In this document: positions 31,637 to 50,520 of the stretch, one piece after another | Layout of the letters: each line of letters starts with the position of its first letter | Numbering within the stretch: the stretch's first letter is position 1 | NCBI RefSeq assembly: GCF_021728415.1 | Contig: NZ_JAKKDV010000004.1 | Span: 1-64,000 of the forward strand | DNA length: 64,000 nt | Reading direction: 5' to 3' | DNA from: Flaviramulus multivorans | Lineage (GTDB): Bacteria > Bacteroidota > Bacteroidia > Flavobacteriales > Flavobacteriaceae | Notes under the pieces: model-generated | The model's database searches: none | What the model saw: the letters and a program-made list of their open reading frames with translations, nothing else | Told to the model about the DNA's origin: nothing | Program-made: the position numbers and the translations under genes

Positions 31637-31690
31637 ATTTACAGCTCTAATTATCAGATAATTAAAAGTTCCTAATTAATAAAATCGTTT

Positions 31691-31800
31691 GGGCGTTACC
31701 ACAAAATTAAAAAAAGGTTTAATTTTGTAGTCAGGCTTTCGGCAGTCGCTTCCCGATAACAATCGGGTGAGCTTCAACAAATGCCTAAATCCTTAATGCA
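31691..31800 (+). repeat. dispersed flavobacterial intergenic repeat, copy A
   Basis: Starts GGGCGTTACC and ends near AATCCTTAATGCA; contains AAAATTAAA...TTTAATTTT and CCCGAT-AACA-ATCGGG stems plus GTCAGGCT. It shares its ends and the GTCAGGCT core with the copy at 49310-49398. These elements look like small palindromic REP- or MITE-type sequences known from flavobacterial genomes. It lies in the 232-bp gap between fbaA and accD. Confidence 0.7.
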
Positions 31801-31868
31801 GTTTTTCGATGTCATGGAGTAAGTTTAGTCCAAAATCGTAAATTGTTAATCTAAAAACATAAAGCACT

Positions 31869-42960: not shown

Positions 42961-43335
42961 ATGATACATGAAGACAAAGAAAAATACTCCGACATTTTAG
43001 AAAATTCTATTTCGTATTTAGAAAACCACGGCTATGAAAATATTAAAGCCGATATGGATGGTTATGAAACGCCAAAATCTTATCACAAAGCGGGCAGCGA
43101 TATAAGTATTACTCCGGATATTGTTGCAATTAAAGAAGGTAGAAAGCATTATTTTGACATTAGCCTAAAATCTGAAAAACCAAAATTATTAAAATCTAAA
43201 TGGTTGTTTTTAAACACACTTAGTAACCTAAAATCATCCCGATTTAGATTAATAACTGCGCGTGGACATTATAAGTTTACTGAAGACATGCTGGAAAGCA
43301 TAAACTTATCACACAAAAATTTAATAAAAATTTAG
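42961..43335 (+). CDS. small conserved-looking protein, possibly nuclease-fold
   Basis: 124 residues from the ATG at 42961. The order GSDISITPDIVAIKEGRKHYF-DISLKS (spaced here) recalls the PD-(D/E)xK arrangement, but the second motif reads D-I-S-L-K, so catalysis is doubtful. It could also be a non-enzymatic small protein. No family assigned. It is followed by a structured element before rpoD. Confidence 0.5.
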   Translation: MIHEDKEKYSDILENSISYLENHGYENIKADMDGYETPKSYHKAGSDISITPDIVAIKEGRKHYFDISLKSEKPKLLKSKWLFLNTLSNLKSSRFRLITARGHYKFTEDMLESINLSHKNLIKI

Positions 43336-43366
43336 TGCGTTTTCTATGGTGCATTATCGATAGAAG

Positions 43367-43450
43367 TGGCATCCTTTTATTTTTTAAATAAAAGATATAA
43401 CGAATAGCGTGACCTTTTTAAAATTTTTAAGTCTTAAAAAGGGGATGCCA
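43367..43450 (+). promoter_or_regulatory. three-way-junction inverted repeat upstream of rpoD
   Basis: Outer stem TGGCATCC (43367-43374) with GGATGCCA (43443-43450); arm 1 TTTTATTT/AAATAAAA (43375-43382/43386-43393); arm 2 CCTTTTTAA/TTAAAAAGG (43413-43421/43434-43442); a 19-nt linker between the arms. It is followed by a T-rich tract (43451-43472). It could be a complex terminator for the upstream gene or a folded leader of rpoD. Confidence 0.6.
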
Positions 43451-43544
43451 AAATATTTTTTAATTTTTTTGTAACAAAATCTCTTATTTATACGTATAAC
43501 TACTGAATAACAATATTCATTTTAAACTTACAGGAGAACTTTAG

Positions 43545-44408
43545 ATGAGACAACTTAAAATTACGAAGCAGGTAACTAATAGAGAAACGGCTTCGTTAGA
43601 CAAATATCTTCAAGAAATTGGAAAAGTTGACTTAATTACCGCAGACGAAGAAGTAGAATTAGCACAACGTATTAAGGCTGGAGACCAAAGAGCTTTAGAA
43701 AAATTGACTAAAGCGAATTTACGTTTTGTTGTATCGGTAGCTAAGCAATATCAAAACCAAGGTTTAACATTACCTGATTTAATTAATGAGGGTAATTTAG
43801 GTTTAATTAAAGCAGCTCAACGTTTTGATGAAACACGTGGTTTTAAATTCATTTCTTATGCTGTATGGTGGATTCGTCAATCGATTCTTCAAGCTTTGGC
43901 TGAACAATCTCGTATTGTACGTTTACCTTTGAATAAAATTGGTTCTATTAATAAAATTAATAAAACATTTGCGTTTTTAGAGCAAAGTCATGAGCGTCCG
44001 CCAAGTGCTGAGGAGATTGCAAAGGAATTGGATATGACTATTAATGACGTTAAAGAGTCAATGAAAAACTCTGGCCGTCACGTAAGTATGGATGCGCCAT
44101 TAGTAGAAGGTGAAGACTCTAACTTATACGATGTATTAAATAGTGGAGAATCTCCAAACCCAGATAAAGAACTATTACACGAATCATTACGTACTGAAAT
44201 TGAACGTGCATTGGAGACATTAACACCTCGTGAAGCAGATGTTATTCGTTTATATTTTGGTTTAGGAAACCAACACCCGATGACTTTAGAAGAAATTGGT
44301 GAAACGTTTGATTTAACACGTGAGCGTGTAAGACAAATAAAAGAAAAAGCTATTCGTAGATTAAAACATACGTCTAGAAGTAAAATATTAAAAACCTATT
44401 TAGGATAG
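43545..44408 (+). CDS. rpoD: RNA polymerase primary sigma factor
   Basis: 287 residues. Sigma-70 without region 1.1, as usual in Bacteroidota. Region 1.2 ([20 protein letters not shown]), region 2 ([30 protein letters not shown]), region 3 and region 4 ([36 protein letters not shown]). It recognises the TTG/TAnnTTTG promoters found across this window. The start has AGGAG about 9 nt upstream (around 43532), a Shine-Dalgarno that most genes here lack. Confidence 0.97.
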
Positions 44409-48443: not shown

Positions 48444-49292
48444 TTATTTAAATTGATTAACAAAATCTTTCGGACTTAAATCTGGAAGTATAAACTCTTC
48501 CGAAGCTTCCAATTTTCGTTCATTACCTATGTCCATTAAATATTCAATAATGGCATTTCTAGTTTTCTTAAAATTGGCATTATCGTTCATTTCGGTTTTA
48601 TCACGAGGCCTTTCAATATCAATCTTAAACTCAGGTCCTAAAGTTGCATTTGGACCGGGTCTTAGGGGAATAATACGATCTGCCATATAAATACCTTCAT
48701 CAACATCATTGGTAATCAATAACGCAGTACGCTTTTCTTTCCCCCAAATATTAAGTATTTCATCTTGCAGATTCCCTCGAGTTAAAGCATCTAAGGCTCC
48801 AAGAGGTTCGTCCATAATAATCATTTCAGGTTTCATGGCTAAAGCCCTAGCTACAGCAACTCGCTGTCGCATTCCTCCTGAAAGTTCTTTAGGTCTTTTA
48901 TTTATAGCAGGTGTTAAACTTACCATTTCAACATATTCGGCAACAATTGCGTTTAACTCGTTTTTACTTTTTTTAGGGAACGCCTCTTTAACTGCCATAA
49001 ACACATTTTGTCCAACAGTTAACCACGGCAAAAGCGAGTAATTTTGAAAAATAACACCACGCTCATGGCTCGTGCCTTGTACTGGTTCACCTTTAAATAA
49101 AACCTCGCCACTTGTAGGCTCTAACAAACCGTTAATTAAATTTACCAAGGTTGTTTTTCCGCTTCCTGTAAAACCAACAATCGCTACAAATTCACCTTCG
49201 TAAATCGATAAATTTATATTCGAAAGTACCTCGGTTGCGTGCTCGTCTTGTCCGTAAGTTTTATAAATATTATTTAATTCTAAGTATGCCAT
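48444..49292 (-). CDS. nrtC: nitrate/nitrite ABC importer, first ATPase
   Basis: 282 residues. Walker A GFTGSGKTTLVNL, signature LSGGMRQRVAVARAL, Walker B IIMDEPLGALDALT. The usual H-loop His is Asn (LLITNDVDEG), as seen in many NrtC-type partners. It forms a heterodimer with the second ATPase. A dispersed repeat separates it from the permease gene (121 bp). Confidence 0.88.
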   Translation of the reverse strand: MAYLELNNIYKTYGQDEHATEVLSNINLSIYEGEFVAIVGFTGSGKTTLVNLINGLLEPTSGEVLFKGEPVQGTSHERGVIFQNYSLLPWLTVGQNVFMAVKEAFPKKSKNELNAIVAEYVEMVSLTPAINKRPKELSGGMRQRVAVARALAMKPEMIIMDEPLGALDALTRGNLQDEILNIWGKEKRTALLITNDVDEGIYMADRIIPLRPGPNATLGPEFKIDIERPRDKTEMNDNANFKKTRNAIIEYLMDIGNERKLEASEEFILPDLSPKDFVNQFK

Positions 49293-49309
49293 TTTTCTAA
49301 TTTTTATAT

Positions 49310-49398
49310 GGGCGTTACCCCAAGGGTCGGGATTTATGCAACAAGTCCTCGCACTTCCTTCGTCAGGCTGTGGGCTTTTCTCTGCAATCCCTAACGCG
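49310..49398 (+). repeat. dispersed flavobacterial intergenic repeat, copy B
   Basis: GGGCGTTACCC at one end and CCCTAACGCG at the other (the ends share inverted GCGTTA/TAACGC); core includes GTCAGGCT. It is the second copy of the element at 31691-31800. It sits inside the nrt operon between permease and ATPase genes, yet leaves both genes whole. Confidence 0.75.
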
Positions 49399-49413
49399 TA
49401 TTTGTAACTCTAT

Positions 49414-50520
49414 TTAAATTGCATCCGTTTTATCAAAACTTACCCAGTTTTGTATGGTTAACATCAATCGGTCTAATAAAAACCCAATAATTCCAATAAC
49501 AAACATGGCAACAATAATTTTCGCATTAGAGTCATTTGCACCATTTTGGAATTCCTCCCAAACAAAGAGTCCTAATCCAGGACTTTGTGCCAATAATTCA
49601 ATGGCAATTAAAACCATCCACGCTACAGATAATGTAATTTTTAAACCTGTAAAAATTAATGGTAAAGACGATGGTAATACCACTTTAAATATCTTCTGAA
49701 ATGGTCCTAACTTTAATACTTTGGCAACGTTTATATAATCCTTATCTACAGATGATACTCCCATCGCAGTGTTCACTAATGTGGCCCACATAGAACATAA
49801 ACCAACACTAATAAACGAAATGGTAAACGAGCTATCTTCATTAGAGTCGATTAATAATGTTTTTACAATCATAAAAACTAACAGATACCAAACTACAGGC
49901 GAAACGGGTTTAAAAATTTGAATAAACCAATTAAATGAACTTTTCAACGTTGGACTTAACCCTATAAATATTCCCAAAGGAACAGCAATAACTAATGCCA
50001 ATAGAAATCCGGCAAATACAGTTTTTAAACTTCTAAATATTTGATCAACAAACGATGGTCTTCCCGTATAAGTAATTGCATCTTTACCTTCAGCAATACG
50101 TTTTTCATTTAAAGCTGCCGTTTTTTCAATAAATGCAGCTTTATCCGCACTAATTATGTTGTGGTCTCTTAATAAAGATTTATAAGAATCCCAAACCTGC
50201 GCTGGCGATGGCAGCGTGTTAGGTTTACAACTTACATCTCCCGAAGCAATGCATTCACGCATAGCTTCGGCAGCTGCAGGACCTTGATCGTTTAGTGCTT
50301 TTTCAATTTTAAACTCTGCTTCTATGTTATATAAAGATTGAGACCCCATATGCCAGAGTCCAATAAATAAAAGTACGGAAGCAAGTGGTACGACTACTTT
50401 ACGTAAGAAGTTAATAAAATCTTCTTTTTCTAGCTTCCCAGTGAATAAGTCTTTTAAAGTACTTAAGAAACCTAATCCCATAAATTTGGTGACTTTTCCT
50501 AATGTTATGCTTTGCTTCAT
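49414..50520 (-). CDS. nrtB: nitrate/nitrite ABC importer, permease
   Basis: 368 residues. An N-terminal extension (about 1-150, one TM, polar periplasmic-like part) precedes the standard binding-protein-dependent permease domain (about 165-360) with the EAA loop (VDKDYINVAKVLKLGPFQKI). The length exceeds typical NrtB (about 275-300), because of the extension. It pairs with the solute-binding lipoprotein 25 bp upstream. Confidence 0.88.
   Translation of the reverse strand: MKQSITLGKVTKFMGLGFLSTLKDLFTGKLEKEDFINFLRKVVVPLASVLLFIGLWHMGSQSLYNIEAEFKIEKALNDQGPAAAEAMRECIASGDVSCKPNTLPSPAQVWDSYKSLLRDHNIISADKAAFIEKTAALNEKRIAEGKDAITYTGRPSFVDQIFRSLKTVFAGFLLALVIAVPLGIFIGLSPTLKSSFNWFIQIFKPVSPVVWYLLVFMIVKTLLIDSNEDSSFTISFISVGLCSMWATLVNTAMGVSSVDKDYINVAKVLKLGPFQKIFKVVLPSSLPLIFTGLKITLSVAWMVLIAIELLAQSPGLGLFVWEEFQNGANDSNAKIIVAMFVIGIIGFLLDRLMLTIQNWVSFDKTDAI

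Follow-up and report, generated by a model that had tools for sequence, protein, structure and literature searches.

What is the compact inverted repeat that lies just before rpoD in Flaviramulus multivorans, and does it have a part in the control of this gene? A sequence-only reading of the window (the whole 64,000-nt stretch of DNA analysed here) had drawn attention to outer arms at 43367-43374 (TGGCATCC) and 43443-43450 (GGATGCCA), which form a stem of 8 bp, and to two inner hairpins that directly abut it, with arms at 43375-43382/43386-43393 (8 bp) and 43413-43421/43434-43442 (9 bp) and a 19-nt "linker" (43394-43412) between them. These arms are present letter for letter. The predicted RNA fold of 43340-43475 reached -29.6 kcal/mol (z -3.1), and 1 of 200 shuffled sequences folded equally well; the corresponding values for the 84 nt of the repeat, a stretch picked because of its folding, were z -3.8 and 2 of 200, and the DNA fold gave z -3.7, with 0 of 200 shuffles as good. 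Since the folding beats that of shuffled sequence, the inverted repeat is real and above chance. A simple scan for intrinsic terminators (a GC-rich stem followed by a T-run) found no site in 43200-43600, in agreement with the earlier impression that the structure is unlike a terminator.

The inverted repeats are part of a Flavo-1 copy (Rfam RF01705) of longer, closed form; Flavo-1 is an RNA motif that Weinberg et al. 2010 (PMC2864571) described. The Rfam model covers 43349-43418 on the plus strand with 55.2 bits (gathering score 42, E 2.9e-9), and the copy shares with the Rfam family the P2 hairpin, the internal loops and the occurrence in Bacteroidetes. A search of the host genome for further copies, which would mark a MITE-like repeat, returned 26 RF01705 matches, 22 of them over the cut-off, and 45 matches with R1, our model of the longer element, which was built from 23 own-genome copies including the one before rpoD. 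The unit common to the own-genome copies exceeds the Rfam model and reads GCGTTA-GGGAT-GNAGNGG-ATCC-UUUU...AAAA-GATATAACG-GAAAGCCC-GACC...GG-TAACGCC. Compared with Rfam Flavo-1, 23 of the 26 own-genome copies, the rpoD-side copy among them, also have P1, a helix that closes the element, and P3, a third hairpin. The family itself is known, but the Rfam model leaves out this three-way-junction form, P1 and P3 lying outside the Rfam structure. The features of the locus and of the second copy in the window are as follows.

43347-43453, plus strand: whole Flavo-1-type element of the three-way-junction form ("type B"), matching positions 1-85 of 85 in model R1 with 66.5 bits
43351-43356, plus strand: 5' strand of P1, GCATTA (GCGTTA in the family), with P1 covariation in the 23 own-genome copies
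43357-43378, plus strand: 5' strand of P2, with the conserved purine internal loop and GGCATCC, from alignment A1 and the Rfam alignment
43375-43393, plus strand: tip of P2, equal to the first inner hairpin, TTTTATTT/AAATAAAA, read from the sequence
43394-43410, plus strand: 3' strand of P2, conserved GATATAACGAATAGCGT, 17 of the 19 nt of the "linker", from the Rfam alignment and A1
43413-43442, plus strand: P3 hairpin, equal to the second pair of inner arms, CCTTTTTAA/TTAAAAAGG, the CC/GG base of P3 being paired in 100% of lettered cells
43443-43448, plus strand: 3' strand of P1, GGATGC (TAACGC in the family), also able to pair with GGCATCC at 43368-43374
43470-43498, plus strand: promoter-like box TGTAAC-N18-GTATA, upstream of rpoD and outside the element, of a kind conserved in rpoD loci
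43545-44408, plus strand: rpoD-type sigma factor ORF of 287 aa, with Pfam sigma-70 regions 1.2, 2, 3 and 4
49307-49401, minus strand: second Flavo-1 copy in the window, with a GC-rich P2, found by R1 (44.9 bits, E 1.3e-7) and without an RF01705 match at the gathering score

We compared the pairing first drawn with that backed by the family, using alignment A1, which holds 23 of the 26 own-genome copies with loops trimmed (L007, L008 and L030, of type A or variant, were left out). The supported three-way junction consists of P1 (43351-43356/43443-43448), P2, which is the Flavo-1 hairpin of Rfam, and P3 (43413-43421/43434-43442); P1, of the GCGTTA/TAACGC type, closes the junction, and P2 and P3 branch from there. 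P1, P2 and P3 together were paired in 90.1% of cells, with changes on both sides in 13 of the 23 pairs (46 cells), and 0 of 500 shuffles scored as high. P1 covaries (C-G/U-A 19:4 and G-C/A-U 21:2 in the 23 copies), and the base of P2 was paired in 99.1% of cells in these copies and in 99.8% in 90 R1 matches. The tips of P2 vary among copies and appear paired by eye. The 90 R1 matches, drawn from 89 of the 90 loci given (five genomes and four rpoD loci of other genomes), had a covariation score of 0.499 versus 0.163 when shuffled, in an alignment fitted to the model; the covariation of columns 30-33 of alignment A2, where two loop types are partly misaligned, was disregarded.

The outer stem of the sequence-only reading fared differently. 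In the same 23 copies it was paired in 48.4% of cells versus 47.1% in shuffled alignments, and its covariation score was 0.057 versus 0.053. The conserved GGCATCC of P2 supplies its 5' arm and the 3' strand of P1 its 3' arm, and most of the supposedly unpaired linker is a strand of P2. The competing stem needs A-U at columns 28-87 and C-G at columns 30-85; 2 of 23 copies have the former and 1 of 23 the latter (one more has U-A). In the rpoD-side copy the usual TAACGC/TAATGC reads GGATGC, which is complementary to GGCATCC, hence the outer stem; by our account the altered 3' arm of P1 would complement GGCATCC by chance. The energy model favours this pairing in the rpoD-side copy, where it recovered 0.13 of the family pairs with DNA and RNA parameters alike. 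A Tamlana copy at the same place before rpoD has an intact P1 (GCATTA/TAATGC). The compact three-way-junction-like fold was thus borne out, though the pairing drawn at first is not the pairing backed by the other Flavo-1 copies.

Among 149 sampled Flavobacteriaceae genomes, 95 had a Flavo-1 match and 54 had none (E 0.001 with stricter filters), and the number of matches per genome ranged from none detected to more than 100; one genome, G149, had 126 matches, and three single-contig genomes had 59, 22 and 45. We inspected 56 copies, including 30 of the 126 in G149, against mechanically called ORFs: both neighbouring genes were in the sense direction in 17 cases, both antisense in 16, convergent in 12 and divergent in 8, with 3 unresolved. 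All 56 copies were intergenic relative to these ORFs, with overlaps at ORF ends in L008, L011, L016 and L022, a placement that is partly by construction because ORFs of fewer than 200 codons overlapping the element were discarded. There was no replication-strand bias among 126 matches in three genomes, 63 lying with the fork and 63 against it, as counted with the lengths of two of the three genomes rounded and the terminus assumed antipodal. The copies examined are scattered between genes without preferred direction, and are present or absent per site in relatives.

Several individual copies showed further features. The second copy in the window (49307-49401) separates an ORF for a permease (49414-50520, PF00528) from one for an ABC ATPase (48444-49292, PF00005); it is in the sense direction, 14 nt before the ATPase start, within an apparent operon. 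A weak third copy at 31688-31803 on the minus strand (21 bits, E 0.086) carries another P2 module, GGCATTTGTTGAAGCT...AGCGACTGCC, which resembles that of L030, and from these two copies the middle of P2 seems to be exchangeable as a unit. In addition, the P2 tips of copies such as L012, L016, L022 and L024 contain other palindromic repeats (GTTCTCGATAC...TCGAGTG; CTGAACTTGTTTCAG), which appear to be nested within the Flavo-1 tips.

Our preferred reading is that Flavo-1 is a palindromic DNA repeat, dispersed and of the same kind as REP and ERIC, and that its copy before rpoD is a partly decayed, dispensable insertion; we put the probability of this reading at about two in three. The strongest competitor is that Flavo-1 is a genuine structured RNA, either a small RNA or an RNA domain, that acts in trans or as a UTR element, the rpoD-side copy being one such gene. 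It accords with the Rfam type (Gene; sRNA), with the conserved, strand-specific purine internal loops and with the position of the copy at 49307-49401, sense inside an apparent operon, whereas the random orientation relative to genes disagrees with it. In a transcriptome of F. psychrophilum, Flavo-1 hits were either sense or antisense to transcribed regions and many lay outside any, which again argues against an RNA; several 5' transcribed regions did coincide with Flavo-1, a point in its favour (PMC9723704). Random orientation and this transcriptome together would speak against a transcribed small RNA gene. A strict Bacteroidetes promoter motif, TTTG-N17-23-TAnnTTTG, occurred within 100 nt upstream of 0 of 54 copies scanned (25 of the 26 own-genome copies, without L019, and 29 G149 copies, without L172), a count that weighs against an RNA gene but is a weak test because the motif is strict.

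The kinds of base pairs bear on the same choice. The 14 pairs of P2 in 90 matches comprised 1257 cells, of which 1236 were Watson-Crick, 10 G-U, 6 A-C and 5 other; column pair 30-144, with 45 A-C and an internal loop in most copies, was left out of this count. The G-U share of 0.8% compares with 4-12% in two small RNA control sets from the host family and relatives, namely tRNA (n = 8; 20 G-U of 167; Fisher versus P2, p 9e-13) and S15 leaders from 29 of 30 genomes, without L294 (7 G-U, 0 A-C and 3 other of 174; p 0.002). This deficit is absent in P3, where 5 G-U and 0 A-C were counted in 109 cells, as would suit an RNA, and it is not clear in P1, with 11 G-U and 19 A-C in 457 cells (16 of the A-C from one column pair); all 23 pairs together had 26 G-U and 70 A-C. 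Confidence in the DNA reading is slightly lower because the deficit is limited to P2. With DNA energies, the minimum free energy fold recovered 0.72 of 15 covarying pairs, versus 0.46 with RNA energies (DNA higher in 16 of 23 copies and equal in 7), whereas the mean pair probabilities, 0.59 for DNA and 0.51 for RNA with DNA higher in 11 of 23 copies, differed little. Both comparisons, of pair types and of energies, are indirect. On balance we consider the structured-RNA explanation unlikely, and Flavo-1 is probably mislabelled as an sRNA.

We then asked how copies behave at sites shared between relatives. We looked for eight G149 sites in 13 congeneric genomes, and the 40 regions fetched represent seven of the eight, some recognised by one flank only (L216 and L217 are copies at site L166, and L242 was left unaligned). 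A Flavo-1 match was present in 19 of the 40 regions, at six sites, and all 19 were oriented like the G149 copy; by eye, the site in the remaining regions was short, replaced or a decayed remnant, the last at L224, L239 and L241. The mean identity to the G149 copy was 0.85 in the core and 0.60 in the flanks, versus 0.80 for 29 G149 paralogues (of the 30 copies looked at, without L172) and 0.50 for unrelated flanks; the core was less alike than the flanks at 2 of the 19 shared sites (L229 and L230). In 108 comparisons of P2 pairs (six pairs in 18 of the 19 copies, without L205), 91 pairs were the same, 14 had changed on both sides and were still paired, 3 were G-T and 0 were mismatched, with the pairing register picked for best pairing, as likewise in the S15 control. 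The tips of P2 were often wholly replaced between shared-site copies, and by eye still look paired. The double changes fit selection on the folded strand or gene conversion by other copies, two explanations that are inseparable here. A selfish repeat would seldom show such compensatory change in place, which is also what a structured RNA would display and which accords equally well with a host function. The single changes, 3 of 3 being G-T and none A-C, lean slightly towards a fold of the top strand, RNA included.

These observations weigh on the idea that Flavo-1 is a dead MITE, neutral and decaying, without function or maintenance. Its many copies, its polymorphism of presence and absence and the decayed remnants at some shared sites are all as expected of such a relic, and the rpoD-side copy itself has a T-T at a P2 pair kept by 22 of 23 copies and a G-U in P1. 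Elsewhere, however, the core is more conserved than the flanks and the paired positions change together, and we therefore regard the dead-MITE explanation as quite improbable. Of the original description as a folded RNA or mobile-element relic, the repeat with many copies has held up; "relic" does not suit copies that keep intact P2 pairs across species, even though some sites have decayed.

A match to R1 lies just before rpoD in 5 of 77 loci (F. multivorans, L045, L063 from Tamlana sargassicola, L065 and L068), each locus having at least 350 nt of upstream sequence; the two samples that supplied the loci overlap, so that some loci are not independent, and L112-L142 stood outside the R1 search. 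The upstream neighbour of rpoD (42961-43335, plus strand, 124 aa, no Pfam match) adjoins rpoD in 6 of the 77 loci. Of these six, the two loci that carry the element have 212 and 263 nt between this gene and rpoD, and the four that lack it have 87-99 nt, so that empty sites, a mark of MITEs, occur at rpoD, the element being present or absent behind the same upstream gene. In 63 of the 77 loci, a TGTAAC-N16-20-GTATA box occurs in the 110 nt that directly precede rpoD. We take this box, whose spacing is conserved, to resemble a Bacteroidetes promoter, and at 43470-43498 it is possibly the promoter of rpoD. The element ends 16 nt before the box, which lies between element and gene, and the element is therefore probably outside the rpoD transcript. 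As a candidate 5' leader of rpoD it was rejected, being found with the gene in few loci and positioned upstream of the conserved box. For rpoD the copy is ordinary, an insertion between the neighbouring gene and the promoter, and probably a somewhat decayed and dispensable one.

No evidence emerged that the repeat takes part in the control of rpoD. We consider it very improbable that the element is a cis-regulatory leader or attenuator of rpoD able to alternate between the family fold and the outer stem. Two mutually exclusive folds are possible in this copy, and the Tamlana copy sits at the same place behind the same upstream gene, but the element is rare at rpoD loci and missing from four relatives that share the upstream gene. 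It also precedes the conserved box, and the pairs needed for the competing stem are rare among copies.

No mover came to light, a point against the DNA-repeat reading: the Y1 transposase profile (PF01797) had 0 matches in the host genome. It matched 58 of the 149 Flavobacteriaceae genomes, and any Flavo-1 match was present in 47 of 58 genomes with Y1 versus 48 of 91 without (p 0.0005), whereas at least 10 Flavo-1 matches were present in 15 of 58 versus 17 of 91 (p 0.31), both counted irrespective of genome size; the link between Y1 transposase and Flavo-1 across genomes is thus mixed. On the contig of the best Y1-like match in G149 (C27:164902), no Flavo-1 match lay nearer to it than 50 kb. 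The element junctions are AT-rich, and the exact insertion boundary and a target-site duplication are not readable from them.

REPs are reported to have a head, GT(A/G)G, together with a palindrome that is short and GC-rich (PMC2817692, PMC3733652). Like REPs and BIMEs as these reports present them, Flavo-1 is extragenic, of high copy number, palindromic, foldable as a single strand and found in either orientation (PMC2817692, PMC3733652). Unlike a REP, Flavo-1 is longer, and its GNAG is variable and internal to the element, with no invariant GTAG. REP/RAYT proper was rejected as an assignment, the host genome having no Y1 match, the GTAG/GTGG head not being found and the association across genomes being mixed. 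The ERIC sequences of enterobacteria are imperfect palindromes of about 100-130 bp between genes, inherited vertically and with no known mover. Flavo-1 is likewise an intergenic imperfect palindrome of about this length and probably inherited vertically, an analogy by description only, and it differs from ERIC in its third hairpin and hypervariable tips. MITEs are short, non-coding and dispersed, and present or absent at a given site. Flavo-1 shares these properties, although the analysis brought to light neither a parent transposon nor, at the AT-rich junctions, a target-site duplication. We also dropped an integron attC-like reading, as we take its boxes to be oriented wrongly. Two further model matches, pntA on the minus strand (28 bits, cut-off 54) and MIR166 at L241 (E 0.00025, 32.2 bits, cut-off 60), scored below their cut-offs and were taken as chance.

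If Flavo-1, as a dispersed DNA repeat, has any function, it would act in the form of a single-stranded DNA hairpin or an extruded cruciform bound by a protein. It may have spread through a recombinase or transposase acting in trans, and may now be mostly inherited vertically, with selection or gene conversion between copies keeping it intact. A bolder proposal, which we consider possible but rather unlikely, is that Flavo-1 represents not RNA but a large and ancient class of chromosomal hairpin DNA in Flavobacteriaceae, in which the single-stranded or cruciform form, with its purine internal loop, closing helix and two variable paired tips, would be bound by a putative protein. Selection or conversion would hold the copies intact where they are, and they might serve, for instance, as sites for recombination, repair or the nucleoid.

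Searches of open-licence literature yielded no functional study of Flavo-1 or RF01705, and among the matches listed on REP-like and MITE-like repeats none presents Flavo-1 as a repeat of DNA. One report counts Flavo-1 as one of the most abundant families of sRNA and gives no function for it (PMC9029176). For two species of Flavobacterium, a 2025 tool paper counts REP-like sequences by the thousand (PMC12306157). The interest of the finding rests on the Flavo-1 family rather than on the copy before rpoD, and the extended fold, the G-U deficit of P2, the absent orientation bias and the compensatory changes in place provide testable grounds for it. If Flavo-1 is truly a DNA palindrome, many of the sRNAs annotated in flavobacterial genomes would be wrong.
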